From IMG/VR virus record IMGVR_UViG_3300042402_002518, positions 1 through 28,383 of that record: DNA of 28,383 nt; one strand, given 5' to 3'. Under the pieces are notes generated by a model, which did not search any database, was not told where the DNA came from, and saw nothing but the letters and a program-made list of their open reading frames with translations. Below are positions 191-28,383 of the stretch, piece after piece (the first letter of the stretch is position 1; every line of letters starts with the position of its first letter). This DNA is from a virus. The position numbers and the translations under genes are program-made.

Positions 191-1075
191 TTATTCTTCG
201 TAGTGTCCACCACCACCGCCCCAATCTCCTTGGCGAGTGTAGCTTGGTGAATAATTGTTCATCTCTAAGATATCATCACGGATATTTTGATTGCGTTTCT
301 CAATATTTAGAACACGTGTAAAGCTGTTGGTGATCGCCGCGGTATAATAAGCAAAAGGATTTTGGCTTTTTGCTTCATCAAACTGTAGGCCGATCTGGCT
401 TAACTGTAACAGTGCTTGACTACGCATTTCATCGTTATAGGTATACCCACGCCAGTTACTACGTGTGGCATAACGCTCACATAATTTAATGAACATATGA
501 GCTAGTTTAGCAGTCATGGAGCCGTGATCTTTTGAAAATTTACCTTTTTCTACTCCGCCTTTCCAGTGGCTTAGACCTACGCATACGGGAGTTAATTCTT
601 CGGTGACTTGATAGTGTTGGAATGGGGGAAAGTTAACTTTGGTATACTTAGTAGCACCTTTAACTACTATAGGCTCATCATATTCAGTTTCAAAATTTTC
701 TTCGTCTGCATCGTATTCTTCTTGTGCTTTGGCATCAGCTTTTTTCTGTTTAACATCGTCGATGGGTATATGATCCCAGGTCATGACGCGGAATACCACA
801 TCAGTCACTGGAATGTCTTTAGTTGGGGTTAAGAATTCATCCAATTTACGTTTATTACCTAATAATAGTTCTGCTTCTTGCGCTTCTTTAGCTAGACGTT
901 CTGCACGAGCTTTACGTGCTTCCTGCACGACTTTCTTAGTGATCTTGTCAACACCAAGAACAATCATGTCATAACTTTTTACTTCATCATTGATAAAACT
1001 ACAATAAGTTAGCTTACTTTTTGCAATTTCTTTAAGAATATCTTTATTGTTTAGATAATTCACCTTTCTGGCCAT
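191..1075 (-). CDS. 55: late-transcription sigma factor, gp55 family
   Basis: This 294-residue protein replaces the host sigma factor on RNA polymerase and recognises the -10-like TATAAATA element of T4 late promoters. The N-terminus VNYLNNKDILKEI matches the T4 gp55 opening YNYVNNKELLQAI. The C-terminal half (SNWRGYTYNDEMRSQAL, then FDEAKSQNPFAYYTAAITNSF and a basic IEKRNQ stretch) matches the sigma region 2-like core of T4 gp55. T4 gp55 has 185 residues; the extra length is mainly an Arg/Lys/Glu-rich and then acidic segment between the N-terminal motif and the core. The protein ends in a Gly run followed by HYEE and lacks the T4 clamp-binding LDFLYE sequence. A longer reading from 1132 exists, but I place the start at 1075 because AAAGGA lies about 10 bases upstream of that ATG and the family begins here. 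It is divergent from the baseplate operon and has its own late-type promoter. Confidence 0.93.
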   Translation of the reverse strand: MARKVNYLNNKDILKEIAKSKLTYCSFINDEVKSYDMIVLGVDKITKKVVQEARKARAERLAKEAQEAELLLGNKRKLDEFLTPTKDIPVTDVVFRVMTWDHIPIDDVKQKKADAKAQEEYDADEENFETEYDEPIVVKGATKYTKVNFPPFQHYQVTEELTPVCVGLSHWKGGVEKGKFSKDHGSMTAKLAHMFIKLCERYATRSNWRGYTYNDEMRSQALLQLSQIGLQFDEAKSQNPFAYYTAAITNSFTRVLNIEKRNQNIRDDILEMNNYSPSYTRQGDWGGGGGHYEE

Positions 1076-1113
1076 GTTTACGTTTCCTTTTAAACTACTA
1101 CTATTATATAACC

Positions 1114-1121
1114 TATAAATA
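1114..1121 (+). promoter_or_regulatory. T4-type late promoter before the tube-cap gene
   Basis: A perfect TATAAATA followed by C lies 25 bases upstream of the ATG at 1147. T4 late promoters consist of this element centred near -10, with no -35 box, and are read by polymerase carrying gp55, whose gene is next door. The start of transcription would be near 1127, giving a leader of about 20 bases that contains the AAGAGG ribosome-binding site at 1131-1136. It would drive the operon running at least to gene 25. Confidence 0.88.
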
Positions 1122-1136
1122 CATAAAAGCAAGAGG

Positions 1137-11797: not shown

Positions 11798-14700
11798 ATG
11801 GCCGCAAGAAAAAGTATAAATTTACTTCCTAATGTATTCAGAACTGATGTCAATGACAAGTTTCTCAGTGCTACATTAGATCAGCTGATTTCTGAACCTT
11901 CACTTACAAACCTATATGGATATATTGGTCGCAAATTTGCACCTACATTCGTAGATGGTGATAGTTATATTACGGAAGGATCAGCTGATAGGCAAAATTA
12001 TCAACTTGAACCAGCTACTATAATAACAGACACAGATGATAATACCACGTTCTTCGCAAGTTATATTGATTTCCTTGACAAGATCAGATACTATGGTGGA
12101 TTGACAGATGATCACAGCAGATTATTTACTGGTGAATACTACAGCTATGATCCAAGGATCAGCTATGACAAGTTCGTAAACTTTGGTCAATACTATTGGA
12201 TACCAAATGGACCCCCAGCGGTACAGGTCAATACCAGCGGCGTAGAATTAGTCAAGACATTCCTAGTCACACGCAATGATAATCAAAACGTCTATGATTA
12301 TTCAGTGGGCGGTATAAAAAACAATACACTGGTACTAGCTCGTGGTGGCACATATACATTCACTGTCAATCAATCAGCAGGTTTTTGGATACAGTCAGAA
12401 CTAGGTGTCGACGGCCGATTAAATGCGACTCCGACTATCAGCAGCCGCGATGTGCTAGGAGTAGAAAACAATGGTGCCGCATCAGGTGATGTAATATTCC
12501 GTGTACCACAGAAAGACGCACAGGATCGTTTCCTTGCTATGGAGTTAGTAGCCACTGTTGATTTTGCAGTTCCATTGGCATACTCTAACTTACAAAATAG
12601 ACTCTTAAGTGATTTCGTCACTGACTATCCGCAGTATGCAGGACTTACAGGGTCACTAGATGGCAAAACATTGATTTTCGTTGATCAACAGGATCTAACT
12701 AATTTTGGTGAAGAGGCCTGGACAGTTTCTGGAGAAACAGACAGCATTTCGGTCGCCTATGACAAGGGTGATGTAGTAGCTGAAGCTGATCGATATGGTA
12801 TTTGGAAGATACAGCTCATACCTTCAGGTGATGACTTCCTTATCAATTCTTATCCGTTGAATACTGTAGCCATAGATCAAAAAGTCTATGTTAAGTATGG
12901 GCTAGTGAATGCTAATCAAGAATTCTACAGAGACTTCACAGGTTTCTTTGAGCGCATGCCACTGATTACCAGCACAGCAGATACGCTTTACATACAAGAC
13001 GGTGATCGTGGAGATATCTATACCAAGATTAAAATTGTAGATTTTCAAGATTTTAGTATAGATGTCAATGACGACATCCTAGGTCAGATAGACTATACTA
13101 GCCCCAACGGTGTTAAATTTACCAGCGGATTAAAAATACAGTTTGATACGGATGTAATTCCTGCAAGTTATCAGAACAATATCTATTACGTTGAAAATGT
13201 TGGTGACAGCATAAGATTAGTTGATACTATGCTGCTGGTCACACCAGAATCATTCAATGACGAAATAGCTATTAATTATCCCGTACAACAGATAGTATTA
13301 GACTCTGCTACTACTGCGATAATACCTGGTGGTTCAATTATTACCATCGGTGGAATACCTATCGAGACCAACACAGAGATATCCGCAGGATCAATTAAAA
13401 TTACCACACTAGATTCAGTGATGACCATTACCAAAGACATGACAGTCACGGGAACAGGAATCGCTGATGGCACAACGGTTTATGATGCTTTTGCTGAAAC
13501 AGTATTTCCTGATTACATCACTATCAAGAGAGACGCATTAGATCTTAATTCTTGGGCTCGTCATAATCGTTGGTTCCATGTTGATGTCATTAAAGCCACA
13601 GCAGAATACAATGATGATGTGCTGATATTAGATCAGAGATTACGTGCTCAAAGACCTATCGTGCAGTTTGAAGGTGATCTGCAATTATTCAATCATGGCC
13701 GCATAGGTAAGAAATATATTGACATATTAGACACTATTATCACAGACGCTTTCAATCAACTCGAAGGACAGTTAGTAGATGATGGTGGTGCGATCACCTA
13801 CAATACCGCGGTATCTCCAGCTGAAGTATTCTATGATGGTGTACTAGTTGGTACAACAGACACAGTAAATTTCATAGGTGATGGCGCATTTGGAGTAACG
13901 TTATTTGATGGTATGCGTGTGTTGTTTGCCGCGGATGAAGATCCATTGGTCAGAGATAAAATATATGTGGTAAATCTTGTGCAGTTTGAAGTTGATGCAT
14001 TTGGTCGTCCTACTGGTGCTAAACATATCAAATTGAGTATAGCAGATGACGGTGATGCTGAAGAGTGGGATTCTGTGGTAGTTAGGCTAGGACAATACAA
14101 AGGCAGTGCTTGGTGGTACAATGGTTCGCAATGGTTAGAAAGCCAGCAGAAAACAGGACTACAGCAAGATCCTTTATTTGATGTCTATGACGCCGATGAT
14201 AGGAGCCTATCTGATACAGATTATTACCCTCGTAGCACATTTGCTGGTACTAAGGCATTTGGTTATCAGCGTAATGCCAATGGATCTACTGATCCGGTTT
14301 TAGACTTTGCCTTAGGCTATAGGAGTTTCCAAAGCCAAGGTGATATCCTGTTTTCAAATTATTTTAACACCGACACATTTGAATACGTGGTCGGCCAGAC
14401 GACATTTACAAAAAATATCAGCATAGGATTTTTGCAAAACATAGTTGATAGGATCACTACCAGTCCCAAGAATACCTGGCGTACGGTAGTAGAACCTAGC
14501 CGCCAATATCAAGTGATGAGTTTTGTCTACGATGGAATCAATAGTTCATTCGCACTAGACGTCACACCAAATAGTCAAAATGTACATGGTACGACTAACA
14601 CTATACCATATGTTAAAGTCTATAAAAATAAAAAATATCTGTTACAGTCCGAGTGGACGATCAGCATAGATAACAAGATAACCTTAGCTACTGAACCAAC

Positions 14701-17700
14701 TGAAGGTGACATAATTGATGTTGAAGTTTATAGCTCACAAGTAAGCCAGTCTGGTTATTATCAAGTACCATTGAATCTGGATCTGAATGCACAGAACATT
14801 GACGTCAATGATCTCACCCTAGGACAGATCCGTAATCACTTGGTTGAGCTCAGCAGAAACAGCACCAATCTCGATGGAGATGTGTTGGGTCCTTGTAATC
14901 TCAGAGACATTGAAATCAAAGCACAAGGCGGTACTATACTGCAACACAGTGCACCACTACCTTATGCCGAATTATTCTTGCTAGATCCCCAAGCTAACTT
15001 CATAGATGCAGTAAAATTAGCACAGCGAGAATACACTAAATTTAAGAACAAGTTCCTTGAACTAAGTTCTAGCTTACCAGGCATAGATCCTGATGATCCT
15101 GTAGCCAGTGTAGATCTTATACTAGCACAGATCAATCTAAATAAAACGCCTACATTACCTTGGTTCTATAGTGATATGGTACCCTATGGAACACTAAAAA
15201 ATATCATAACTTATACGGTATTTGATCCATTGGTGCTTAGTTATGAAATCACTTCAGTATTTTCATCTGTGACTTTGAGTAATCGAGCAGTGTTAGTCTA
15301 TCTAAATGATCAACAATTAATTTTAGGGATTGACTACACATTTGACACAGACAGACCTGCTGTTACATTTAACGACGTATCCATCACTTTAGCAGTTGAT
15401 GATGTCATAACCATAGTGGAATACAGCAATACTGATGGTAGTTTCGTACCAGAAACACCCAGCAAGCTAGGCACATATCCTAAATTTAAACCAGAAATCG
15501 TAGCAGATGACACCTATAGGACTACAAGAAATGTCATACGCGGCCATGATGGTAGTATAACTCCAGCCTTTGATGACTATAGAGACGATTTCCTGCTGGA
15601 ACTAGAAAAACGTATATACAATAACATCAAGCTACCCGACACTGGATCTTACAGAGACATCTACAGCCTATTGCCAGGTAAATTCAGAGACGATGGATAT
15701 ACCTACAGTGAAATGTGGAGCATTCTCAGCAAGAATTTCTTAACCTGGGTGGGCAATAATAGGATCGCAGATTTTACATCAAATGACACGTTCCTGAGCA
15801 ATGATGGATTCACTTGGAACTACTCGAGATTCGTTGATAGGATAGACGGTGAATACATGCCGGGTAGCTGGCGTGCAGTTTATGAATATTTCTATGACAC
15901 TATATATCCACATACTCGTCCATGGGAGATGCTGGGATTTACAACTAAACCTGATTGGTGGGAAGACTACTATGGACCAGGACCTTATACTGGTGGAAAC
16001 AAACTCTTATGGGATGATTTAGAAGCGGGTCTCATACGTTTTGGAGATCGTGCAGGAACAGACATCGACTATGCCCGCCCCGGACTATCAACCATAATTC
16101 CTGTAGATGAAAATGGATACTTGTTGAATCCAGCCCAGGTCATAGCTAAAGCTACCAATGGCAAATATGCGGCTACATCGTGGTCAGTAGGACAGCTAGG
16201 TCCAGTTGAATGGGCATGGAGGACCAGCAGCGAGTTCCCATTTGCAGTGCAACAGGCCGTGGCCGTAGCTAAACCTGGTATGTATTTTGGTCAGTTCATT
16301 GACACATATCAAGTACGATACAACAGTGAACTTGGACAATTCTTAACGCAGGATAATCATCATTTAAGGCAAACAGACATTACCTATAATGGTGATAGTT
16401 CATCGGGGGCTGTGGTTAGGAGCGCAGGATATCTAAACTGGATCGTAGATTATCTGCGTAATCTAGGAATAAATCCCGGCACTAAGATAACACCTATGCT
16501 GGAAAACTACAGTGTTAAATTAGCCTACAAGATGGCAGGATTTAGCGACAAGAAATATCTACAGATCCTAGCAGAGCAAAGCAGTCCTACCAGCACCAAT
16601 GCCAGCATCATGGTACCAGAAGAAAACTATGATGTGGTTCTATACAAATCAACACCTGTAGACAAGATCACCTACAGTGCTGTGATATTAGAAAAAACCA
16701 CTAATGGATTTACCGTAAGGGGCTATGATCTAAATAGTCCGTACTTTACTATCATACCAAGTGTAGTTAATAACAATGCCTACAAGATCACTGTGCTAAA
16801 CAGTTCAGGAACCGTATTCAACGATTATCGAAAAGTTAAACTAACGGTGCCATATGGGTATGAATTTAAGAACAAGCAACAGGTAGTAGATTTTCTTATC
16901 AGCTACGAAAGATATCTCATAGCACAAGGCTTTACGTTTAATGATCGTGACGGCGATCTTGGTGAAACACGAAATTTTAAATTGTCAGTAAAAGAATTCT
17001 TGTTTTGGGCACAGCAGGGCTGGAAGACAGGCACCTTGTTGGTTATGAGCCCAGTTACGAATTCGATCACGCTGACCACAGTTGGTAACATAGTAGATGA
17101 GATAACCGACAGCCAGCATGGTAGCAAGATCGTAGATCAAAATTTTAATTTAGTTAGGAATACTGGTTATCAGATATTACGTAGTCCTACGGGATTTAAA
17201 GTCACGCTTGCAGATGACAACGTGCTAGGTCTAGTAGAACTTAATCTAGTACAATATGAGCACGTGCTGACATTTGACAATACCACCGTATTCAATGACG
17301 TCATCTATAAACCAGAACTAGGTAATAGGCAATACCGGCTTAAACTAATAGGCCAAAAAACTGCAGCCTGGGACGGTAGCCTATATGCGCCAGGATTCGT
17401 TTATAATAGTGAAACTGTACAGACGTGGCAATCAGGAAGAGATTATCTTAAAGGCGAGTTGGTATTATTTAAAGACCAATACTACGTAGCACTGGTTAAT
17501 GTACCAGCGGCAGTAGAGTTTGATTTCACTACCTGGAAACTATTAGCAGCCTCTGAGATCAAAACTGGTCTTCTAAGGAATTTTTCTACCCTAGCAGTGG
17601 GTTCGCAAAGTTTCTATAACAGCTATGGTGATCTGCGTGATAACGATCAACTAGCATACAGTCATGGATTGATAGGATTTAAACCTAGGCAGTATCTCAG

Positions 17701-20700
17701 CGATCTAGGCGTAAGCGACACCACTCAAATTGAATTTTACAAGGGTTATATCAGGCAAAAAGGATCTACTAATGCAGTAGATGCCTTGACCAAAGCCGGT
17801 TTTAATAATCTATCTGGTAATATCAGCCTTTATGAAGAGTGGGCAGTGCGTACAGGCGAATATGGTGCACTTACTTCTAATCCCTATATAGAAATTGCTC
17901 TAGATGAACGTGCATTCAGCGTGAATCCAGCTGTAGCAGAATTTGTTGATACCGGTGACAGTAATCTTGGTGATGGGGTAACCATATTTAATAAATCACA
18001 ACTGTATAGATCCACAGATGCATTTGATGGAAATATAGCGATTAACAGAGATGATTACAGTGATTATGACAATGATATCCTTACAGCTGGATACGTAAAT
18101 CTAGAAGACGTATCAACTACTATTTTTGATATCGCTGATTATGCTGAACTAAATGATCAGCTCGCAGACATTGGCAACGGATATACTATTTGGTGTGCCA
18201 GAGATTTTTCAGGTAAATGGAATGTCTATAGGGTAAGTGAAACAGCAACGCAGGCAACTACGCTGACAAATGCACTTGATGGTTACATAACCTGGACCAC
18301 AGATAGACCGCATGGATTGGCAGTAGATGATGTGTTCTTGATACGTGGATTTAACGACAATTTCAATGGTTTTTATCAAGTTTATAGCGTGCTTGATCTC
18401 AATAGAGTTACAGTAGTATACCAAGGAAATCAAGATAATTTAAATGATCTCAATACTCTAAGTGGTCAAGGTATTTTATTTGTGCTTAAGAGTCTACGAT
18501 TCAGATTCATGGAAGATTCGCGAGTGTTTGGATTAACTAATCCACTTTATAGATGGCGAGTGGGTGAAAAAATCTGGATAGATGAAGATGCGGCTACAGA
18601 TAGCATACAAGGTCAACCGTATAATACTCCTAGCGGCGGATGGAAAGTTTATGAGAAAACTGAACCATGGTCATATAATCAGACTGTTATTAAATCTAGT
18701 GGTGAATACAAGACCAATGATGGATTTGGTACCAGCGTAAAATTAAGCTATGATGGATTGCTAGCTGTAGTAGGTAGTCCACAAGCCAATAGTACTCCAT
18801 ATTATAGTGGTGGTGTAGAAGAAATTACTGGTCGCGTAAATACCTTTGATAAGAACTATGTAGATGAATTTGTCAATGGATTTACCTTATTACCGACAGC
18901 AGGTAATGCAGTAGTAATCAATAGAGAATTTGGTTACAGTGTTGACCAGGCTATAGGCAAGGTCGCAGTTGGTGCTCCCGGCAGTTATGCTAATATAGGA
19001 TTAGTTTACATTTACGATAGAATTTCAGGTACTACTGATTTCAGTAAACCTCAAGTCATATGGTCAGGCAATGCTATATATGGAGCCGGAGATAGATTTG
19101 GTGCAAGTATTTCCTTTGATGAAAACGGTACATGGTTATATGTAGGTGCTCCAGGAAATGATCGTGTTTATGTTTATGGATTAAACAAATATGTTTCGTC
19201 ACAGCAACAGGTTATATCTGTAAACAATCGTAATATAATTCGTTTAAATGCAAATGTCTCTGTTGCTGATTTATCCTATATTTCTAATCCTAACACAGGT
19301 GCATTAGCAACAGTATATTCATCAGGAAATACATTCCTTGGATCAACATGGGGTGCTAATATTGTTGTTTCGACCTTAACAGGATTTACTGAAGGTAATA
19401 CAGCTGCGAATATCTATATCAATAATGTTGATTCTGGATTGTATGCTAATATATTGTTTACTGTATCAAATACCAGCACCATTACTACTAGCTTTACTCC
19501 TGACATAACTAATACGGCAGAATCACTGTTAGTTACAAATTCTAATAGAATATTCATTCCTAATTTAGATTACACTTTAAGTGGTAGTGTTATCACATTC
19601 ACTGGTAATATAGCACAAGATGTTTATGTAATTACACAGCAACCCTATTACACACTATCAAATACTATCCAAGGACCGAGTGGTAGTGATTTTGGCTATA
19701 GCATGGACAGCAGTTTGGATGGTGCACAGCTAGGTGTGGGTGCACCAAGCGCCAATGTCCTTGTTGGCAATGCGTGGATACAAGCCGCAGGCTCTGTATA
19801 CGTTTATGATAGGGTTATAGAAGCCTTTGAATCTACTGGCTTATTAGATTATACTGCGACTGGAACTATTGATATCGTACACCGAGTAACCATTGATAAT
19901 ATTGAAGTAACTAATTACACAATACCTGGTGGCATAGGATCAAACACCATACGATTTATTAATCCTCCTGCACTTGGTAAGACAGTCTATATTGAAACCA
20001 ATCAGTTTAATCTACTAGAACAACTAGTGGGTGTTGACAGCCTCGAAGGTGGAACAGATGCCATACACGCCAACGCGGCATTTGGTACTGATCTAACTAT
20101 CTGTAGCAATAACTGTGCGATATACGTAGGCGCACCATATTATAATGCTGGCACTAATTATAACACTGGTGCTGTGTGGAAATTCCATAACAGGGGCAGA
20201 TTGTATGGTACTAATAACGGTTACACAATAAATCCAATCTTCACACCTGGAGACACATTACGCTTAGATAACTTTGAAATAACAGTTCAAGGTCGATTGA
20301 TGCCAACGATTTTTGATGCAAACACAGCATCAACGATTTCGGGTATTCCATTGATATATGTCAGTGCTAACATTCTGGCATTAAGCAGTAACATAGTCGC
20401 CAACGTTGGTCAGGTAATCAGTCAAAATCTTGGTAGTGGATACTATGCTAATGTGATTGTGTTGGCAAATACTACTCCAAATAGTAGTAATACAGTTGTA
20501 GGATCTAAGTTTATCACGGTAGGCGGCAATATTAGACTTAGTGGACAATTAACAGCCAATGTATTTAACTATGGGCCTGGCAATGTAGTGACATTGTATG
20601 CTAACATCGGTAGCGGGTATAGTGGTACTGTTTCTACTGCTTATCCAATGGCCAGCTTAGATAACCTAATTAAAGATATCAATGATGCCGAATTGCTAGG

Positions 20701-23700
20701 TATAACCGCAGTAAACGAAAACGATACATTGAGATTAAATTCTAACAAGACAGTAGCTAAAAATTTACTGCGAGTATTAACTGGCACTAATCGTGCAGAC
20801 AGTGTTGGTGTATATGCCGCAGCAGACATGAAGATATTTGCATTCATGCAGATCATCGTAAACCCATATAACACCCCTGGCGAATATTTTGGTAATAAAG
20901 TCGTGCTAGCACAAAATGCCTATATGTTGGTCATCGGCAGTGAACGCGGTACTACTAGATCATATTTAACATTAGATGAAGCAACTACTACATTAGATCA
21001 AGACAGTACGAGATTCTTTGACGCTACTTTGGGCAGTGGTAGTGTTTACATTTATGAACTATATGATGATCCACGCGACGAAGTTGAAGATCCGGGCCGT
21101 TACGCTTTTGCACAACAATTAAAACTTCCTAATATAAATCCTGATGATTCCGATGATGAACTAAACACAGGAGATAGATTTGGAGCGGCTATTGATATCA
21201 TTGGTACTAATATCATTGTAAGTGCTCCTGGTGACGATACATCATTGATCGATGCTGGCAGCGTGTATATTTTTGCTAATCCTACTCTGACACGCGGATG
21301 GAATCTCATACGCTATCAACAAGATAAAGTAGATGTTGATAGTGTAAATAGGATCTATTTGTACAGTAATCTGACCAATACTATCTTGACTAATTTGGAA
21401 TTTATTGATCCAGCTAAAGGCAAGATCTTAGGTATAGCTGATCAAGAAATCTCCTATAAAACAGAATATGACCCTGCCGTATACAATCGAGGATCGAATG
21501 CTAATCAAAATTACTATTGGGGAGCGGAACAGGTCAATCAAGTTTGGTGGAATCTCAGCCAAGTTCGCTTTGTTGATTATGAACAAGCTAGTCTAACATA
21601 TCGCAGCATTAATTGGGGTAGACTATTCCCCGGCAGCATAATTGAAGTTTGTGAATGGGTAGAATCCCCAGTTCTACCTAGCCAATACGTTGAGGCAGGG
21701 TTTGATGGTGTGCCTAAGTATGCTGACGACAGCCAATATGTTGAGATAGTACGTGTTGATCCAAATACCAACATCATCGGCAGCAGATATTATTTCTGGG
21801 TGACTAATAAAACCAGCCTAACTGGTAATGATCCTAAACGCACACTACCAATACAATCAATAGCAAACTATATCAGTGATCCTAAATCACAAGCTATCGC
21901 CTATGCCGCCATCATAAAGAAAGATGCTATCATACTTTACAACGTAGGTAACTACTTATCTGCGCAAAACACTATCCTGCACTTGGATTATGACCTACTT
22001 AAAAATACCAATGTCATACACAGTGAATACGAACTTATACAGAAATCAAATCCAGTCAGTCTTGTACCTGAAAAGATCAGCAACAAGATGATAGACAGTT
22101 TGGCAGGACTTGATCTATTAGGTCGCATAGTACCAGATCCTAGGCTCAACATAGCTGATAGATATGGTACCGCAGTAAGACCAAGACAGAGTATGTTTAT
22201 TGATCGCCTAAGGGCCATGAGCGATCTAATAGAATACGTTAACAGCATATTGATCGCTAAACCTATAGCAAGACAGTATAATCTCACAACGCTAGGTGCT
22301 GAAGAAGATCAACCTAGCATTAAATTAGGTGAATATGATATCGCAGTGGCTACAGAAGAAGATCTAAACTATATCGATACTACACTGCTGTCAGCAGGCT
22401 ATAAGGTACTAGTAGAGCAAAATACAGTGCAGGATAATCTCTGGAGCCTGCACGAACTACAGTCAGATGGATCTTGGGATATCATAAGGATACAGAGTTA
22501 TAAATCTAGCCTTTATTGGGAATATATAGATTGGTATGCTGAGGGATTTAGTGAAGACGAAGTTATCGAATATGTGGTAGAAACACTTCCTGACGCACTT
22601 AAACTGCCGGTCGCAGTGGGGGATGAAGTCTTAGTAAGGGTTAATAACAGCACAGGTGGTGGATTTAATCTGCTAACAGTATTGGACGACAGAAGTTTTA
22701 GAGTAGTTGGTATTGAAAACGGCACAGTGCAATTAAAAACAAGCCTAAGTAACTTCGCAGACAATGGTATTGGGCTAGGTAATCAAGGATTTGATTCTAG
22801 CAGATTTGATCAGAGTCCAAATATAGAAATACGCTATATCATCGAAGCCTTAAAAAATGATATTTTCGTTGATGAATTACAAGGAGAATACAACAAACTA
22901 TTCTTCGTGATGATGAACTACCTGTTCAGTGAACAGAAATATGTTGATTGGATTTTCAAGACCAGTTTCATCAGCATCACACATTATCTGAGATCACTGA
23001 TCCAACCAGCTAACTATGTTAAGGATAATATTACCTATTATGAAAATTACATAGAAGAAGTCAAACCCTATATCACTAAGATACGTGAATACTTGACCAG
23101 TTACAGTGGGGATGACCTATTTAAAGGCAGCATTACCGACTTTGACCTAGCACCATACTACGATCCAGATACTAAAATATTCCGCAGTCCAGATGGCACG
23201 TTCATTGAAAAAGATCGACAATTATGGGCCACTGGTTATCTAATATCAAATGGTGCATTAATTAATCAAGATTACCCTCAATGGTATCAAAATAGAAATT
23301 TCTATGTCGATGAGATCATCATCACTAATCCAGGTAGCGGCTATACCGCAGAACCAACTATCACAATTACTGGCGGTGGCGCAAATGTACAGGCTACTGC
23401 CTTAGCAGAAATAGACGGAGATACCGGTGCTATTACCAGCATCACTGTCTTGACTCCTGGTAACGGCTACTACCTAACGCCAACAGTTATCATAAACGGA
23501 TCAGCGACTGAAGCCGCAACTGCTTATGCTGTGTTACGCAATGATCAATTAAGGACATTTGATACTACGCTTAAATTTGATCGCGTCAGTTATGGGACTA
23601 CAGTCGAACAATGGTCTGCTAACAGCTATTTTGTCGCTAATACTATAGTCAGCTACGAAGGACAGGGCTATAGGGTGAAAGCTAATCTGACCACCGGATC

Positions 23701-25852
23701 AACTTTTGTAGTCAGTGATTATGCCGCATATCCAGCTAATAGTTTTAATAATGCCAACGATCGCATCATGGCCTACTATGATCCAACTAATACGATGCCA
23801 GCCAAAGACCTTAATCAATTGATCTATGGCATTGAATATCCTGGAGTCAAGGTACAGGGATTAGATTTCAATCAACAACCTGGATTTAGTGGCGAGATCC
23901 GTGCTAATATTACATTTAATACAGCAATATCTGCAGGTGTTGGTGATGTGATCACACAACCTGAAGCAGATATTATATTAAACTTTAGTAATGTCATTAC
24001 TGCTAGCATTGGACAGACTATCAGCCAATATCAAGGTCCAGGGATATATGCCAATGCTGTAGTATATGGTAATACTATGTCTAATGGTGCGACACAGGGT
24101 AACATAACGAGTTCACTCACTGGTTATTTCCTCAAGACCACAGGATTTACTTTTGACACCACGAATCAAATATTTGTTGATGACGTAAGGCAATTTAGTA
24201 ATGTATTTGTAGCTAATGCATGGTCAAATATAGCTGTTAAACCAATATCATCTACCGTAGGTGGAATAACGTCGGTTGAAGTCGCAGTACCCGATGCGGC
24301 TATCACAGTAACAAGGATTTGGTCTAGCGCTAAGATTCAAGGTACTATTAATACATCATCAGATTTCCTAGTAGGTAATGTTGCTAACTCTAGCATAAGG
24401 AACGGAAACATCAAGATAGGCAGCACATGGGTGACTGCTTATCCTATCAACGTTGATTATGTCAGCACTACGGCAGGTACACCATTTGACAGTGGCGATT
24501 ACGATAATATTGACTATGACGAAGATGGCAATCCAATAGTCAGTGAAAATAGTATTGATACTATTATCCGTAGTACTTACTTAGACACCGCATTAGGCAC
24601 ACGTGCAGAAGACATTGACGTAGATGGCGGTGCTTATGTTGACACATATTCAAGTCATGCTCCAGAAGAGCTAGTTCCTGGCAGGACCTACGATACCTTA
24701 GACATGCGTGTTTATACTAAGATTAACAGCAATGTTGATGTGATTGGTTATAGAATATTTGATAATATGGTAGATGACGTCAGTTATCTACGTATTGCTG
24801 ATAATTTTTCTACCACATTAACGTCTGCATTGTCGTCAATTGCTACCAGTATATCAGTGGCCAATGTGGCACTGTTAGCAACCCCTAGTGTGTCATCTAA
24901 CACTCCTGGGGTGATATTTATTGGTGCTGAACGTATTACCTACTGGACTGTAAATACCGCGACTAATACTCTAGGTCAAATCCGCCGTGGCACACAAGGT
25001 ACTGCTATTCCTACTACACACCCCAATGGTAGTGTAGTAATTGATGGTAGTACTAGACAACTAGTACCAGACTCAGATCATAGCAATATTACCTTAACCG
25101 TTACTAACACCTATACGGTTACTGATACTATTAGTTACAATCTGAGACTAAGTGGAAATGTTTCAGCTAACGTTGGTGATATCATCACACAAACTACATC
25201 GGGAGCAAATGTAACTGTAATTGGCACAAATTTAATAACATCATCGCTATTAGTAACTTATAACAGCGGTGAGTTCAATTACTCAAATGTTACTGTACAA
25301 CTAAGCGGTAATCTACAAGCCAATGTTGGCAACTATATTACACAAACTAGTTCAGGTGCTAATCTACAGATTGTAGCAACTAACGCAGGCGGCACTAATG
25401 TTCTAGCACGGTATACCACAGTAACACAATTGATAACAGGTTCAGGCAATCTTAAACTAAATGGTACTAATGTTGGTGTGTATTCGACCAGTGTTGCTGT
25501 TACACCATTGACTACTTCAAATCTAGCTATCAACGGAGTATATTCTGGAGTTTATCCTTATGCCAGACAGCAGGCAGGATCTGCAGATATAGTAACAGCA
25601 GGTGGCAATGTTACAGTTGGGGCAGGAAACATATTAATCACAGCTCGATCATGGTATAATTTGGGTACTGCTAATATTGCTACAGATGGCACAGGATTTG
25701 ATGGGGCAATTACTAATGCTGTATTATTTTTAAAACAAGCAACAGCTAATAATTTAATAGTAGCATCTATCCCAGATGAGTTAGTCACTGAAGATGCGAT
25801 AAATACACTAACTACAGAAGATGGAAATACAATAATTGAGGAAGATCAGTAA
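11798..25852 (+). CDS. giant baseplate protein at the gene 7 position, with FG-GAP propeller and binding modules
   Basis: A single uninterrupted frame encodes 4684 residues, far above T4 gp7 (1032). The opening INLLPNVFRTDVNDKFLSAT and YYSYDPRISYDKFVNFGQYY are familiar from large baseplate or fibre proteins of marine T4-like phages. In order I see: this N-terminal region (1-150); a cupredoxin-like strand pattern without copper ligands (about 180-255); beta modules of about 45 residues (near 939 and 1165); a conserved Trp-rich region (1290-1550); a CBM5/12-like motif (1877-1913); seven FG-GAP motifs (about 2300-3165) with inserted repeats; a second conserved region (3165-3800, containing DWIFKTSFISITHYLRSLI); paired GSGY repeats (3842-3914); a second CBM-like motif (from 3939); NVG-type repeats; and a C-terminal tail with TEDG. 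The role is inferred as wedge periphery and host contact. The ribosome-binding site (AAAGAGAA) is modest. Its stop overlaps the next start by one base. Confidence 0.72.
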   Translation: MAARKSINLLPNVFRTDVNDKFLSATLDQLISEPSLTNLYGYIGRKFAPTFVDGDSYITEGSADRQNYQLEPATIITDTDDNTTFFASYIDFLDKIRYYGGLTDDHSRLFTGEYYSYDPRISYDKFVNFGQYYWIPNGPPAVQVNTSGVELVKTFLVTRNDNQNVYDYSVGGIKNNTLVLARGGTYTFTVNQSAGFWIQSELGVDGRLNATPTISSRDVLGVENNGAASGDVIFRVPQKDAQDRFLAMELVATVDFAVPLAYSNLQNRLLSDFVTDYPQYAGLTGSLDGKTLIFVDQQDLTNFGEEAWTVSGETDSISVAYDKGDVVAEADRYGIWKIQLIPSGDDFLINSYPLNTVAIDQKVYVKYGLVNANQEFYRDFTGFFERMPLITSTADTLYIQDGDRGDIYTKIKIVDFQDFSIDVNDDILGQIDYTSPNGVKFTSGLKIQFDTDVIPASYQNNIYYVENVGDSIRLVDTMLLVTPESFNDEIAINYPVQQIVLDSATTAIIPGGSIITIGGIPIETNTEISAGSIKITTLDSVMTITKDMTVTGTGIADGTTVYDAFAETVFPDYITIKRDALDLNSWARHNRWFHVDVIKATAEYNDDVLILDQRLRAQRPIVQFEGDLQLFNHGRIGKKYIDILDTIITDAFNQLEGQLVDDGGAITYNTAVSPAEVFYDGVLVGTTDTVNFIGDGAFGVTLFDGMRVLFAADEDPLVRDKIYVVNLVQFEVDAFGRPTGAKHIKLSIADDGDAEEWDSVVVRLGQYKGSAWWYNGSQWLESQQKTGLQQDPLFDVYDADDRSLSDTDYYPRSTFAGTKAFGYQRNANGSTDPVLDFALGYRSFQSQGDILFSNYFNTDTFEYVVGQTTFTKNISIGFLQNIVDRITTSPKNTWRTVVEPSRQYQVMSFVYDGINSSFALDVTPNSQNVHGTTNTIPYVKVYKNKKYLLQSEWTISIDNKITLATEPTEGDIIDVEVYSSQVSQSGYYQVPLNLDLNAQNIDVNDLTLGQIRNHLVELSRNSTNLDGDVLGPCNLRDIEIKAQGGTILQHSAPLPYAELFLLDPQANFIDAVKLAQREYTKFKNKFLELSSSLPGIDPDDPVASVDLILAQINLNKTPTLPWFYSDMVPYGTLKNIITYTVFDPLVLSYEITSVFSSVTLSNRAVLVYLNDQQLILGIDYTFDTDRPAVTFNDVSITLAVDDVITIVEYSNTDGSFVPETPSKLGTYPKFKPEIVADDTYRTTRNVIRGHDGSITPAFDDYRDDFLLELEKRIYNNIKLPDTGSYRDIYSLLPGKFRDDGYTYSEMWSILSKNFLTWVGNNRIADFTSNDTFLSNDGFTWNYSRFVDRIDGEYMPGSWRAVYEYFYDTIYPHTRPWEMLGFTTKPDWWEDYYGPGPYTGGNKLLWDDLEAGLIRFGDRAGTDIDYARPGLSTIIPVDENGYLLNPAQVIAKATNGKYAATSWSVGQLGPVEWAWRTSSEFPFAVQQAVAVAKPGMYFGQFIDTYQVRYNSELGQFLTQDNHHLRQTDITYNGDSSSGAVVRSAGYLNWIVDYLRNLGINPGTKITPMLENYSVKLAYKMAGFSDKKYLQILAEQSSPTSTNASIMVPEENYDVVLYKSTPVDKITYSAVILEKTTNGFTVRGYDLNSPYFTIIPSVVNNNAYKITVLNSSGTVFNDYRKVKLTVPYGYEFKNKQQVVDFLISYERYLIAQGFTFNDRDGDLGETRNFKLSVKEFLFWAQQGWKTGTLLVMSPVTNSITLTTVGNIVDEITDSQHGSKIVDQNFNLVRNTGYQILRSPTGFKVTLADDNVLGLVELNLVQYEHVLTFDNTTVFNDVIYKPELGNRQYRLKLIGQKTAAWDGSLYAPGFVYNSETVQTWQSGRDYLKGELVLFKDQYYVALVNVPAAVEFDFTTWKLLAASEIKTGLLRNFSTLAVGSQSFYNSYGDLRDNDQLAYSHGLIGFKPRQYLSDLGVSDTTQIEFYKGYIRQKGSTNAVDALTKAGFNNLSGNISLYEEWAVRTGEYGALTSNPYIEIALDERAFSVNPAVAEFVDTGDSNLGDGVTIFNKSQLYRSTDAFDGNIAINRDDYSDYDNDILTAGYVNLEDVSTTIFDIADYAELNDQLADIGNGYTIWCARDFSGKWNVYRVSETATQATTLTNALDGYITWTTDRPHGLAVDDVFLIRGFNDNFNGFYQVYSVLDLNRVTVVYQGNQDNLNDLNTLSGQGILFVLKSLRFRFMEDSRVFGLTNPLYRWRVGEKIWIDEDAATDSIQGQPYNTPSGGWKVYEKTEPWSYNQTVIKSSGEYKTNDGFGTSVKLSYDGLLAVVGSPQANSTPYYSGGVEEITGRVNTFDKNYVDEFVNGFTLLPTAGNAVVINREFGYSVDQAIGKVAVGAPGSYANIGLVYIYDRISGTTDFSKPQVIWSGNAIYGAGDRFGASISFDENGTWLYVGAPGNDRVYVYGLNKYVSSQQQVISVNNRNIIRLNANVSVADLSYISNPNTGALATVYSSGNTFLGSTWGANIVVSTLTGFTEGNTAANIYINNVDSGLYANILFTVSNTSTITTSFTPDITNTAESLLVTNSNRIFIPNLDYTLSGSVITFTGNIAQDVYVITQQPYYTLSNTIQGPSGSDFGYSMDSSLDGAQLGVGAPSANVLVGNAWIQAAGSVYVYDRVIEAFESTGLLDYTATGTIDIVHRVTIDNIEVTNYTIPGGIGSNTIRFINPPALGKTVYIETNQFNLLEQLVGVDSLEGGTDAIHANAAFGTDLTICSNNCAIYVGAPYYNAGTNYNTGAVWKFHNRGRLYGTNNGYTINPIFTPGDTLRLDNFEITVQGRLMPTIFDANTASTISGIPLIYVSANILALSSNIVANVGQVISQNLGSGYYANVIVLANTTPNSSNTVVGSKFITVGGNIRLSGQLTANVFNYGPGNVVTLYANIGSGYSGTVSTAYPMASLDNLIKDINDAELLGITAVNENDTLRLNSNKTVAKNLLRVLTGTNRADSVGVYAAADMKIFAFMQIIVNPYNTPGEYFGNKVVLAQNAYMLVIGSERGTTRSYLTLDEATTTLDQDSTRFFDATLGSGSVYIYELYDDPRDEVEDPGRYAFAQQLKLPNINPDDSDDELNTGDRFGAAIDIIGTNIIVSAPGDDTSLIDAGSVYIFANPTLTRGWNLIRYQQDKVDVDSVNRIYLYSNLTNTILTNLEFIDPAKGKILGIADQEISYKTEYDPAVYNRGSNANQNYYWGAEQVNQVWWNLSQVRFVDYEQASLTYRSINWGRLFPGSIIEVCEWVESPVLPSQYVEAGFDGVPKYADDSQYVEIVRVDPNTNIIGSRYYFWVTNKTSLTGNDPKRTLPIQSIANYISDPKSQAIAYAAIIKKDAIILYNVGNYLSAQNTILHLDYDLLKNTNVIHSEYELIQKSNPVSLVPEKISNKMIDSLAGLDLLGRIVPDPRLNIADRYGTAVRPRQSMFIDRLRAMSDLIEYVNSILIAKPIARQYNLTTLGAEEDQPSIKLGEYDIAVATEEDLNYIDTTLLSAGYKVLVEQNTVQDNLWSLHELQSDGSWDIIRIQSYKSSLYWEYIDWYAEGFSEDEVIEYVVETLPDALKLPVAVGDEVLVRVNNSTGGGFNLLTVLDDRSFRVVGIENGTVQLKTSLSNFADNGIGLGNQGFDSSRFDQSPNIEIRYIIEALKNDIFVDELQGEYNKLFFVMMNYLFSEQKYVDWIFKTSFISITHYLRSLIQPANYVKDNITYYENYIEEVKPYITKIREYLTSYSGDDLFKGSITDFDLAPYYDPDTKIFRSPDGTFIEKDRQLWATGYLISNGALINQDYPQWYQNRNFYVDEIIITNPGSGYTAEPTITITGGGANVQATALAEIDGDTGAITSITVLTPGNGYYLTPTVIINGSATEAATAYAVLRNDQLRTFDTTLKFDRVSYGTTVEQWSANSYFVANTIVSYEGQGYRVKANLTTGSTFVVSDYAAYPANSFNNANDRIMAYYDPTNTMPAKDLNQLIYGIEYPGVKVQGLDFNQQPGFSGEIRANITFNTAISAGVGDVITQPEADIILNFSNVITASIGQTISQYQGPGIYANAVVYGNTMSNGATQGNITSSLTGYFLKTTGFTFDTTNQIFVDDVRQFSNVFVANAWSNIAVKPISSTVGGITSVEVAVPDAAITVTRIWSSAKIQGTINTSSDFLVGNVANSSIRNGNIKIGSTWVTAYPINVDYVSTTAGTPFDSGDYDNIDYDEDGNPIVSENSIDTIIRSTYLDTALGTRAEDIDVDGGAYVDTYSSHAPEELVPGRTYDTLDMRVYTKINSNVDVIGYRIFDNMVDDVSYLRIADNFSTTLTSALSSIATSISVANVALLATPSVSSNTPGVIFIGAERITYWTVNTATNTLGQIRRGTQGTAIPTTHPNGSVVIDGSTRQLVPDSDHSNITLTVTNTYTVTDTISYNLRLSGNVSANVGDIITQTTSGANVTVIGTNLITSSLLVTYNSGEFNYSNVTVQLSGNLQANVGNYITQTSSGANLQIVATNAGGTNVLARYTTVTQLITGSGNLKLNGTNVGVYSTSVAVTPLTTSNLAINGVYSGVYPYARQQAGSADIVTAGGNVTVGAGNILITARSWYNLGTANIATDGTGFDGAITNAVLFLKQATANNLIVASIPDELVTEDAINTLTTEDGNTIIEEDQ
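12341..12570 (+). other. cupredoxin-like strand pattern lacking copper ligands
   Basis: Residues about 182-255 of the giant protein read RGGTYTFTV, SAGFWIQSE, then VENNGAASGDVIFRVPQ. The spacing resembles the cupredoxin-like domain in the fibre gene at 27403-27717 (TYTF, SHPFAI, GTQTFTVP), but the His is replaced and there is no Cys-x2-His-x2-Met at the end. It may be an ancient relative that kept the fold only. This is pattern comparison by eye. Confidence 0.35.
17426..17550 (+). other. CBM5/12-like carbohydrate-binding motif, first copy
   Basis: Residues 1877-1917 of the giant protein read W-QSGRDYLKGELVLFKDQYY and end with a second conserved Trp (W1913). The W-x3-x-x-Y-x-x-G-x-x-V-x-x-x-x-x-Y pattern is that of short chitin- or cellulose-binding modules, which place aromatic side chains on a sugar. 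A second, weaker copy lies at 23612-23740. The identification is by motif only. Confidence 0.45.
18700..21290 (+). repeat. seven FG-GAP repeats, likely integrin-type beta-propeller
   Basis: Seven copies of an FG...VGAP motif occur in the giant protein, with the Phe at residues 2310, 2378, 2434, 2632, 2762, 3031 and 3128. Examples are FGYSVDQAIGKVAVGAP, FGASISFDENGTWLYVGAP and FGYSMDSSLDGAQLGVGAP; each is followed by a V-Y-[IV]-[YF] strand in most copies. FG-GAP repeats form seven-bladed propellers in integrin alpha chains, and exactly seven are present. The spacings are about 56-68 residues for the first three and 97-270 afterwards, because other beta modules are inserted between later blades. 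The last two copies are the most diverged. Confidence 0.78.
20360..20480 (+). repeat. NVG-type beta repeat inserted between propeller blades
   Basis: The giant protein near residue 2869 reads NIVANVGQVISQNLGSGYYAN. The same scheme, (S/T)A-N-V/I-G-x-x-I-(T/S)-Q followed by a Gly/Ala-rich turn, recurs at 23932-24063 and as a tandem pair at 25148-25370. It lies between FG-GAP motifs five and six. Confidence 0.6.
23321..23540 (+). repeat. paired GSGY beta repeats
   Basis: Two adjacent repeats of about 36 residues, starting NPGSGYTAEPTITITGGG (residue 3844) and TPGNGYYLTPTVIINGSA, each continue with an Ala-rich strand (ATALAEI and ATAYAVL). This is a common small module in marine phage structural proteins, probably a beta-solenoid-like spacer; its function is unknown. 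Confidence 0.65.
23612..23740 (+). other. CBM5/12-like motif, second copy
   Basis: From residue 3939 of the giant protein, WSANSYFVANTIVSYEGQGY repeats the W-x-x-x-x-Y-x-x-x-x-x-V-x-Y-x-G-x-x-Y scheme of the first copy at 17426. The Gly before the first Tyr is missing. It follows the GSGY repeats directly. Confidence 0.4.
23932..24063 (+). repeat. NVG-type beta repeats, second cluster
   Basis: Two units follow one another in the giant protein: ISAGVGDVITQPEAD, then ITASIGQTISQYQGPGIYAN. The second unit is very like the single unit near 20402 (NVGQVISQNLGSGYYAN), which suggests duplication and spread of one module within the gene. Confidence 0.6.
25148..25370 (+). repeat. tandem 51-residue NVG repeats near the C-terminus of the giant protein
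   Basis: Two units start at L4451 and L4502, exactly 153 bases apart. They read LSGNVSANVGDIITQTTSGA and LSGNLQANVGNYITQTSSGA. The DNA copies are similar but differ at many third codon positions, so the duplication is not recent or has been kept at protein level only. Confidence 0.75.
25798..25805 (+). promoter_or_regulatory. late promoter inside the 3' end of the giant gene
   Basis: GATAAATA followed by C lies 46 bases before the fibre ATG at 25852 and inside the coding sequence of the giant gene. The expected transcription start is near 25811, and the ribosome-binding site GAGGA at 25838-25842 lies in the leader. The placement and flanking C match the other late promoters, so the fibre genes can probably be expressed independently of the 14-kb gene. 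Confidence 0.65.
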
Positions 25853-28233
25853 TGTCAACGATTAAAATAACTGGATTAACTAGCTCAGGAGCAATAGTAG
25901 GTAATGTTATATTACCAATGGTTGGTAATGTTGCTGGCACACTTACTACGCTCAGAGGAACGGTAGATCAGCTGAAGACTTTTATCACAGCCGGTGCTGA
26001 AGCAAATATACTAGCGGCCAATGCTGCCACTATTTTTGCTAACACTATAATGAAAAGTTATGTTGACCTAGCCAACACTATACAATCAGCTCAACTTACT
26101 TCTGCAAATATTGGTATTATTGGTTATGTAGATAATTCGGTATCAACTGCTAACTTAGGAATGAAGGGATATGTTGACAGCGTAGCTAATCAATCAATCT
26201 ACGGTAACGGTAATGTTACTTCTTATACTGTGTCAATGGGCTTTACTAATTTTAGTAATGTTAATGTGTCGGCACTGATAACAACAAATGGATTAACAAA
26301 CTACAGCAACGTTAACACCAAAGCCTATGCTGAGTCAATGGGCTATCAAAACTTTGGTAATGTAAATGTTGCGGCTTACGTGACCACAGCTAACTCAGCA
26401 GTAATTGGATATGTAGACAATGCAGTATCTACTGCTAACGTAGGTATGAATGGATTCGTCAATGCAGTGATAGATGCTGTAAATGTTGCTAACATTGTGG
26501 TCACACAGTCTATAGTTTCTGCCAACGTAGGTATGAAAGGTTATGTTGACAGCCTAGTGGGTGGTGGTAGCAGTTATGGCAACGGTAATGTTGCCAGTTA
26601 CTTGATATCAACACGAGTGTCCGTCGCTAATATCAAACTTGAACCAAGCGGCAATATAACATTCGCTGATGGCACAACACAAACCACAGCAGCCTCAGGT
26701 GGTGGTAGTAATTATGGTAATGCTAATGTCACTGCTTATACAGTGTCAATGGGCTTTGCTAACTTCAGTAATGTAAATGTCAAAGCATATTCTGAGTCCA
26801 TGGGCTATCAAAACTTTAGCAACGTAAACGTAGCGGCCTATGTGACCACTGCTAATTCAGCGGTTATTGGCTACGTAAACAATCAAGTATCAACAGCTAA
26901 TATTGGCATCATTGGATATATTGACTTAGGTAATACCATACAATCAAATCAGATCTCATCAGCTAACCTAGGTATGAAAGGGTATGTTGATAACGCTATT
27001 ACAACCATCACAGGCGGTGCACCAGCAATATTAGATACCTTGGGCGAATTAGCAAATGCACTCGGAGCAGATGCAAATCTATCAGTGACATTAACTAGTT
27101 ATATTGGTAATGTTAATGCTAACATAAGCACAGCCAATCTTGGCATGAAAGGGTATGTTGATAGTGTTGCTAGTCAATCATTATATGGCAATACTAATGT
27201 TTCAGCACTAATAACAACCAATGGATTAACTAATTATAGCAATGTAAATGCCAAAGCCTATACTGAATCTATGGGTTATCAAAACTTTGGTAATGTTAAT
27301 GTTGCAGCTTATGTGACCACAGCCAACTCAGCCGTAATTGGTTACGTAGACAATTCTGTACTGACTGCCAATGTTGGTATGAAAGGCTATGTTGACGCTG
27401 GTGTCATATGGTCCATATCGGCCTCTGGTACGTCAGACTATGTATTTTCTGGACCTGGTATAGTCGCTGGCAATACCAATGATCCTGTGCTGTATCTTTA
27501 TAAGGGATTGACTTATACTTTTATCAACACAACTGGAGGGTCACATCCATTTGCCATCAGAGTAAGCAATGGAGGTGCTGACTATACCAGTGGTGTTAGT
27601 GGTAGTCAAACCGGTACACAGACATTTACAGTGCCTATGGATGCACCTTCGACTCTATATTACCAATGCACAATCCACGGTGTTATGGGCAATACGATCT
27701 ATATAGGATCAATTGATAACAACTATTCAAATGTCAACGTCAAAGCCTACACTGAAAGCATGGGCTTCCAAAATTATAGTAATGTCAACGTAGCGGCATT
27801 GATAACTACAAATGGATTAACAAACTACAGCAATGTCAACGTCATAGCTTATCTAGCAGGTAATATTACTGTGGGTAACATCGCAGGCAGTGTCGACGGT
27901 TACAGCATTGGTTACAGAGATGTTCCACAGATCACAGTGGCTAACTTGACATTGATCGCCAGTGACGCAGGCAAACACTACTATGGTGCTAATACAAATC
28001 CAACCACTATAACCATTCCAACTAATGCCAACGTGGCATTTGGCAACGGTACTGCTATCAGTATCGTCAATCAAGGCACAGGTAATATCACTGTTGCTAA
28101 TGCCGCAGGTGTTTCGCTTTACCTAGCAGGTAACTCAACAGCAGGCAGTAGAACACTTACCAGTTATGGTATGGCGACACTAATTAAAGTCCAAGTCAAT
28201 ACTTGGTTTATCAATGGTAGCGGAGTAGTTTAA
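25852..28233 (+). CDS. repeat-rich tail fibre with inserted cupredoxin-like domain
   Basis: This 793-residue fibre opens with MSTIKITGL, then ILPMVGNVAG and LRGTVDQLKTFI, the attachment-type start common to marine phage fibres. The shaft is made of degenerate repeats with eight GYVD and four ESMG(Y/F)QN motifs. Within it are familiar fibre elements: GNITFADGTTQTTAA (residues 267-281) and LDTLGELANALGADANLSVT (394-413). Residues about 518-622 are a cupredoxin-like domain with His565, Cys606, His609 and Met612. The last 110 residues (GYSIGYRDVPQ, DAGKHYYG, WFINGSGVV) match a C-terminal domain seen on many phage fibres. The start overlaps the previous stop (TAATG), has GAGGA nine bases upstream, and is served by the late promoter at 25798. 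The role is host adsorption, inferred from architecture. The next gene begins two bases after the stop. Confidence 0.85.
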   Translation: MSTIKITGLTSSGAIVGNVILPMVGNVAGTLTTLRGTVDQLKTFITAGAEANILAANAATIFANTIMKSYVDLANTIQSAQLTSANIGIIGYVDNSVSTANLGMKGYVDSVANQSIYGNGNVTSYTVSMGFTNFSNVNVSALITTNGLTNYSNVNTKAYAESMGYQNFGNVNVAAYVTTANSAVIGYVDNAVSTANVGMNGFVNAVIDAVNVANIVVTQSIVSANVGMKGYVDSLVGGGSSYGNGNVASYLISTRVSVANIKLEPSGNITFADGTTQTTAASGGGSNYGNANVTAYTVSMGFANFSNVNVKAYSESMGYQNFSNVNVAAYVTTANSAVIGYVNNQVSTANIGIIGYIDLGNTIQSNQISSANLGMKGYVDNAITTITGGAPAILDTLGELANALGADANLSVTLTSYIGNVNANISTANLGMKGYVDSVASQSLYGNTNVSALITTNGLTNYSNVNAKAYTESMGYQNFGNVNVAAYVTTANSAVIGYVDNSVLTANVGMKGYVDAGVIWSISASGTSDYVFSGPGIVAGNTNDPVLYLYKGLTYTFINTTGGSHPFAIRVSNGGADYTSGVSGSQTGTQTFTVPMDAPSTLYYQCTIHGVMGNTIYIGSIDNNYSNVNVKAYTESMGFQNYSNVNVAALITTNGLTNYSNVNVIAYLAGNITVGNIAGSVDGYSIGYRDVPQITVANLTLIASDAGKHYYGANTNPTTITIPTNANVAFGNGTAISIVNQGTGNITVANAAGVSLYLAGNSTAGSRTLTSYGMATLIKVQVNTWFINGSGVV
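26098..27860 (+). repeat. degenerate GYVD / ESMGYQN fibre-shaft repeats
   Basis: The repeat unit alternates (S/T)AN-x-G-M-K-G-Y-V-D-(S/N) with YSNVNVKAY(T/S)ESMGYQNF and NVAAYVTTANSAVIGYVDN. Three long arrays lie at about 26098-26560, 26570-27000 and 27100-27400, and a shorter one after the cupredoxin-like domain at 27718-27860. Copies differ mostly at third codon positions, though short stretches are identical, for example around 26284 and 27812. Such arrays allow recombination between copies. Confidence 0.85.
27403..27717 (+). other. cupredoxin-like domain with intact type 1 copper ligands
   Basis: Fibre residues 518-622 show a beta-sandwich pattern: YLYKGLTYTFIN, SHPFAIRV, GTQTFTVPMDAP and YYQCTIHGVMGNTIYI. 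His565, Cys606, His609 and Met612 have the spacing of a type 1 blue-copper site; Cys-x2-His-x2-Met is the arrangement in amicyanin. The domain interrupts the repeat shaft without breaking the frame. Whether it binds copper cannot be told from sequence. Confidence 0.75.
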
Positions 28234-28234
28234 C

Positions 28235-28383
28235 GTGGCCGGTATAATGATGGGGTTAATGAATAATGTTCAACCTCAGAACGTTGTGGTTGTAAATTAT
28301 ACACCACTTGCGGGCAGTTTGCAGTTCAACGGCTCCACCCAGTATCTCAGTATGAGTCCAGGCTTTGCATTAGGTGCCGGCGC
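28235..28383 (+). CDS. LamG/ConA-like fibre or lectin protein, N-terminal part only
   Basis: An open frame runs from a GTG at 28235 to the right edge (49 codons visible). GGAG at 28222-28225 lies nine bases before the GTG, which is why I prefer it; ATG codons at 28247, 28250 and 28259 are alternatives. After VVVVNYTPLAG the sequence continues SLQFNGSTQYLSMSPGFALG, the typical first strands of a LamG/concanavalin A-like jelly-roll domain as found in phage fibres and surface lectins. It begins one base after the fibre stop and so is probably in the same transcript. A role in binding host glycans is inference. The rest lies outside the window. Confidence 0.68.
   Translation, partial: MAGIMMGLMNNVQPQNVVVVNYTPLAGSLQFNGSTQYLSMSPGFALGAG

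Follow-up and report, generated by a model that had tools for sequence, protein, structure and literature searches.

The question raised by this locus is whether a phage tail protein carries a cupredoxin domain able to hold copper and, if so, what the metal would do there. The window, meaning the whole stretch of 28,383 nucleotides that was analyzed, is virus record IMGVR_UViG_3300042402_002518 from position 1 to position 28,383. An open reading frame at 25852..28233 on the plus strand encodes a 793-aa protein, which was assigned as a tail fiber or gp9-like connector protein by two family matches. The match to PHROG 677, "baseplate wedge tail fiber protein connector," had an E value of 3.4e-30, spanned aa 165-618 of the protein and positions 35-408 of the 412 in the profile, and takes in the cupredoxin region. 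The second match was to PHROG 1197, a tail protein family. The gene immediately upstream (11798..25852, plus strand) is an open reading frame for a giant protein of 4684 aa, which matched PHROG 10938, virion structural protein.

The 793-aa protein begins with fiber-type repeats (25852..27402, plus strand), which include the DTLGELANALG module and, at aa 332-471, matches to the tail families PHROG 1197 and PHROG 18185. The cupredoxin domain follows at aa 518-618 (27403..27705, plus strand). Downstream of it are more repeats and a C-terminal segment (27706..28230, plus strand), which is missing from most relatives, since these mostly stop just past the domain. In the translation, GYVDS and SNVNVAAY repeats were found on both sides of the cupredoxin domain, and the TLGELANALG module was found upstream of it. 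A plasmid search with the entire fiber protein gave one weak match, at aa 369-431, which is outside the cupredoxin domain.

The sequence-only reading of this DNA had proposed that the stretch from aa 518 to 622 is a cupredoxin-like domain with complete copper ligands, and had named structure prediction with comparison to known copper proteins and an alignment of homologues as checks. The structural check gave a confident cupredoxin model. AlphaFold2, run on 40 sequences drawn from the window and related contigs, predicted nine strands with a pLDDT of 94.8 and a pTM of 0.87. The best VIA-align match of this model was the N-terminal domain of the Hyphomicrobium three-domain copper nitrite reductase 2dv6 (Z 10.9, 2.4 Å, 96 residues), and the match to rusticyanin had a Z of 9.2. 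Foldseek matches at E<=1e-3 comprised copper nitrite reductases, rusticyanin, amicyanin, pseudoazurin, AcoP, other cupredoxins, multicopper oxidases, and SufI. The Foldseek and VIA-align matches listed are cupredoxins or multidomain proteins made of cupredoxin domains. According to the model, aa 518-618 form a cupredoxin fold, a Greek-key beta sandwich of about 100 aa, with the caveat that AlphaFold2 may have learned the link between motif and fold. The three-domain copper nitrite reductases (2dv6, 6tfd), which provide the best structural match, also have their cupredoxin domain fused into a larger protein, but they are bacterial enzymes, and the identity to the phage domain is 21%. The fold was also matched, with TM scores of about 0.62-0.71, by BFVD entries named "Beta-sandwich proteins" from Pithovirus- and Marseillevirus-like giant viruses (A0A481Z6J5, A0A481YWX9, and others).

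Four residues of the domain are putative copper ligands, and the translation places them at the numbers given in the sequence-only reading. These are His565 (27544..27546), Cys606 (27667..27669), which is the sole Cys of the protein, His609 (27676..27678), and the putative axial ligand Met612 (27685..27687), all on the plus strand. Their order, His, Cys, His, and axial Met, with Cys, His, and Met on the last loop, is that of type 1 copper sites. In the model, His565 is located just ahead of strand 53-56, and the C-x2-H-x2-M loop bridges the last two strands, 87-92 and 99-105; this predicted arrangement is the topology of a cupredoxin site. The 793-aa protein contains 1 Cys, 3 His, and 18 Met. 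On composition only, and with the upstream His uncounted, the chance that its sole Cys would have a His at +3 and a Met at +6 is approximately 3/793 x 18/793 = 1e-4.

The spacing of the loop had been likened to that of amicyanin, and this part of the comparison held. The HMMER alignment set all four ligands of the phage domain on the amicyanin ligands, with the loop aligned residue for residue, and the distance from the first His to the Cys is 41 here versus 39 in amicyanin (H53-C92). The likeness did not extend to the residue after the first His, where amicyanin has Asn and the window domain has Pro566 (HN versus HP). Asn at this position is common in the type 1 class but is not a strict requirement, and rusticyanin has Ser86 there, a residue also named in the title of PDB entry 1gy1. 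Among 102 intact domains, the residue was Pro in 94 and Asn in 2. With Pro in place of Asn, the second shell of the site differs from that of amicyanin, and the copper affinity and the color or spectroscopic properties may differ as well. The structural alignment with amicyanin gave an identity of about 17%, and amicyanin is a soluble periplasmic carrier, whereas the phage domain is part of a tail protein. The NCBIfam scores of the window domain for amicyanin and halocyanin were far under the cutoff. The phage site resembles that of amicyanin, but judged by its profile score the domain is not an amicyanin, because it reached 17 bits against the 110.2 bits of TIGR02657.

When the window domain was searched as a single sequence, no Pfam family was matched, and phmmer against the PDB also returned no match. 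A profile built from 18 relatives and searched against 177,635 PDB sequences retrieved nearly only type 1 copper proteins, with a best E value of 2.8e-6 and amicyanin at 2e-4. When the ligands were masked in the profile, most of the 17 matches at E<10 were still cupredoxins, but they were weak (E 0.09-1.1). By these searches, the kinship of the domain to type 1 copper proteins is genuine but remote, and much of the sequence signal is in the motif, because masking the four ligands leaves only weak matches in the PDB.

The alignment of homologues supported the conservation of the ligands. The pattern V[PQ][MHF][DN]A[PN]xxLY, which contains no ligand residue, was used as a ligand-blind search and found 80 loci. 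The set of H, C, H, and M was complete in 79 of the 80, and the one other locus had Tyr for the second His. After reduction of this set at 80% redundancy, the four ligands were kept in 23/23. In an alignment of 18 rows, the only invariant columns were the four ligands, one Gly, and one Tyr, and in an alignment of 40 rows, they were the four ligands and one Tyr. The rows of both alignments were picked as ligand-bearing, and the ligand-blind search is the unbiased test. Codons were counted in relatives picked as ligand-bearing or nearly so. His565 was encoded by CAT or CAC (65/41), Cys606 by TGT (73) or TGC (33), His609 by CAT (66), CAC (39), or TAT (1), and Met612 by ATG (103) or AAA (3). Silent change in the ligand codons is free, and replacement is almost absent. 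The C-x2-H-x2-M loop was exact in 102/102 intact domains, with the spacing between His and Cys ranging from 32 to 76, and the ligands were retained down to about 28% identity, in podoviruses and myoviruses. The ligand-blind retention, the invariant columns, the silent codon change, and the exact loop indicate that selection acts on the four ligands jointly.

A natural control is provided by those relatives in virion proteins that lost the site. In a tree of 65 nonredundant domains, the window-type clade (support 98/98) was intact in 40/40, and the 11 degenerate copies all fell in the other clade. Most of the degenerate copies lost Cys, the second His, and Met together, and sometimes the first His too; the exceptions were a change of Met to Lys in three close rows and a single change of His to Tyr. 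A ligand-less relative was also detected in the window itself by an HMM match, at aa 167-240 of the 4684-aa giant protein (12296..12517, plus strand). The homologue L229 is 38% identical to this giant protein over the N-terminal part (BLASTP E 2e-44) and has a complete site at the matching place. The C-H-M motif (CxxHxxM) was absent from the giant protein of the window and from 32 aligned homologues (33 copies), in which a gap lies over the C-H-M segment. The ligand-less domain's own model was poor (pLDDT 61.8, best Z 4.5), so its apparent relationship to the cupredoxin domain rests on sequence. The domain can evidently persist without its ligands. Their strict retention in the connector would consequently need a reason that applies to the whole set, and metal binding would be the simplest one.

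The four residues might hold a metal other than copper, such as zinc, or no metal, and be kept for structural reasons. This explanation is unlikely, and it ranks marginally first among the alternatives. A cupredoxin-like protein in the PDB was solved with zinc (4hcg), and the second shell of the phage site is unlike that of amicyanin. However, a Cys, two His, and a Met spaced in this way make up the ligand set of type 1 copper sites, and retention for the fold only is unlikely, considering that related domains exist in which the ligands are gone.

The domain was present in 338 phage records, mostly from T4-like cyanophages with a gp9-like "baseplate wedge tail fiber connector." The cyanophage connectors of PHROG 677 have all four ligands, are 52-58% identical to the window domain at their best, and are encoded at or near the place after the giant structural protein. 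In L061, L064, and L066, the gp9-like connector has the domain at its C-terminal end, and the connector gene directly follows that of the giant structural protein, which is the gene order of the window; in L052, one extra gene lies between the two. Carriers among the Autographiviridae were P-GSP1 and MedDCM-OCT-S30-C28. A SAR11 phage and a Methylophilales phage have the domain in their tail fibers, and in P-SSM2, S-SCSM1, and MED4-213 it is part of other large proteins, the majority of them tail proteins. The proposal that the domain-bearing protein is a virion part is supported by its homology to PHROG 677 and by the position of the connector gene after that of the giant structural protein. 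No published virion proteome of a carrier phage was found. S-CREM2, which has a published virion proteome, was considered as proof of virion location and rejected, since the 23-kb stretch searched was without the domain.

The sequence-only reading had described the domain as embedded in fiber repeats. This is true of the window protein but is not the typical state. The cyanophage connectors are about 390-410 aa long with the domain at the extreme C terminus, whereas the window protein has 793 aa, has repeats on both sides of the domain, and runs for 175 aa past it. Of 88 distinct intact domains whose 3' end was complete, 71 finished no more than 15 residues ahead of the stop codon. By this comparison, the internal position in the window protein is an exception, and a terminal position is the state in most relatives. 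The gene after the connector was found to carry domains of this kind as well. In L061, L064, and L066, it encodes two cupredoxin-like domains, the first ligand-complete and the second without ligands, and in L089, L090, and L094, H, C, and H are kept and the axial Met is changed to Lys (HCHK).

From the conservation of the ligands and the predicted structure, we conclude with moderate confidence that the segment is a cupredoxin domain with a type 1-like copper site formed by His565, Cys606, His609, and Met612 and with a mainly structural role. The binding of copper in the virion, taken by itself, appears quite likely; stabilization as the main role of the copper is a more tentative proposal. 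Cupredoxins do not need copper to fold, and binding it makes them more stable. The apo domain would fold inside the host cell, and each subunit would then acquire a single copper from the lysate or the water, probably giving a total of three in a trimeric fiber. The bound copper would cross-link the His565 strand to the Cys-His-Met loop, and this cross-link would stiffen and stabilize a domain that usually caps the connector or the fiber.

Rather than stabilizing the fiber, the copper-loaded domain could be recognized by a copper uptake system or another surface system of the host and aid adsorption as a copper "Trojan horse." In the T4 gp37 tail fiber tip, iron is held by HxH motifs, and a Trojan horse role has been proposed for it (PMC11705849). 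This tip also places a metal in a phage tail fiber, but it differs in that the metal is iron on HxH pairs and the fold is another one. The occurrence of the cupredoxin domain in tail proteins, usually at the C-terminal end, and in phages that infect cyanobacteria, SAR11, or Methylophilales would fit such a role. However, unrelated phages that infect different hosts share a well-conserved version of the domain, as in the cyanophage matches of 52-58%, and its conservation roughly equals that of the remaining gp9-like protein, which is not what a typical host-range tip shows. The cyanophage carriers are also mostly annotated as connectors. We regard host recognition as an improbable explanation, second among the alternatives.

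A role as a redox or copper sensor, or in surface electron transfer, that triggers a conformational change at host contact ranks lower still and appears quite improbable. The exact amicyanin-type loop is kept, and the type 1 sites of the closest families are redox active. However, there is no known redox partner, and elsewhere in the virion the axial Met was changed to Lys and the site was lost, which shows related domains managing without it. Redox sensing and the use of a copper-linked receptor are possible functions, suggested by the location of the domain and by analogy with iron in T4 gp37.

Chance, or a recent capture of a host cupredoxin whose ligands are kept by inertia, is very improbable and largely refuted by the ligand conservation: cyanophages carry plastocyanin genes (petE), as mentioned in PMC10665884, but the ligands are kept in podoviruses and myoviruses whose domains share as little as about 28% identity, the ligand codons change synonymously, and a search of limited sensitivity in 84,980 genomes found no close host gene for the domain. 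A second genome scan yielded six relatives, L227-L232. L227 and L229 resemble phage genes within MAGs, and L228, L230, L231, and L232 resemble bacterial proteins that are probably exported (a collagen-like protein, a putative lipoprotein, a repeat protein, and others). Some of the related domains among these four bacterial proteins have altered ligands.

Type 1 copper sites have been described in electron carriers and in copper enzymes. In the present case, the type 1 ligand set and the fold occur in tail structural proteins from several groups of phages, among them hundreds of cyanophage records. Public records list the domain as a connector or hypothetical protein, and the fold and the ligand set were known already; what appears to be new is a putative cupredoxin copper site as a phage tail part. 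In the open-access journal papers searched, no literature was found that joins cupredoxins with tail fiber, baseplate, or cyanophage structural proteins. Because a blue-copper-like domain keeps its four ligands almost unchanged across hundreds of aquatic phages, the results suggest that the virus particles of the carrier phages contain copper. If copper is bound, these phages would be metalloparticles whose stability or adsorption could depend on the metal. The isolated cyanophages S-SSM4, Syn9, S-SM1, and Syn33 allow direct testing of the copper reading. A broader and doubtful extension is that the blue-copper site on aquatic phage tails is a metal- or redox-responsive attachment element, with copper-loaded virions, copper-dependent infectivity, and an addition to the copper ligand pool of the water.

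The genes near the fiber gene encode members of baseplate wedge families and a baseplate hub/lysozyme family, more virion proteins, and a late sigma factor. The hub protein of the window had its closest counterparts in large phages, Atu_ph07 and PA5oct among them, with 27-36% identity. On the basis of this similarity, the probable source of the record, which would be a genome fragment, is a large myovirus of the T4-related or jumbo type and not a close relative of the cyanophages. The gene of the late sigma factor (191-1132, minus strand; PHROG 12791, E 2.6e-80) is located beside the baseplate cluster.
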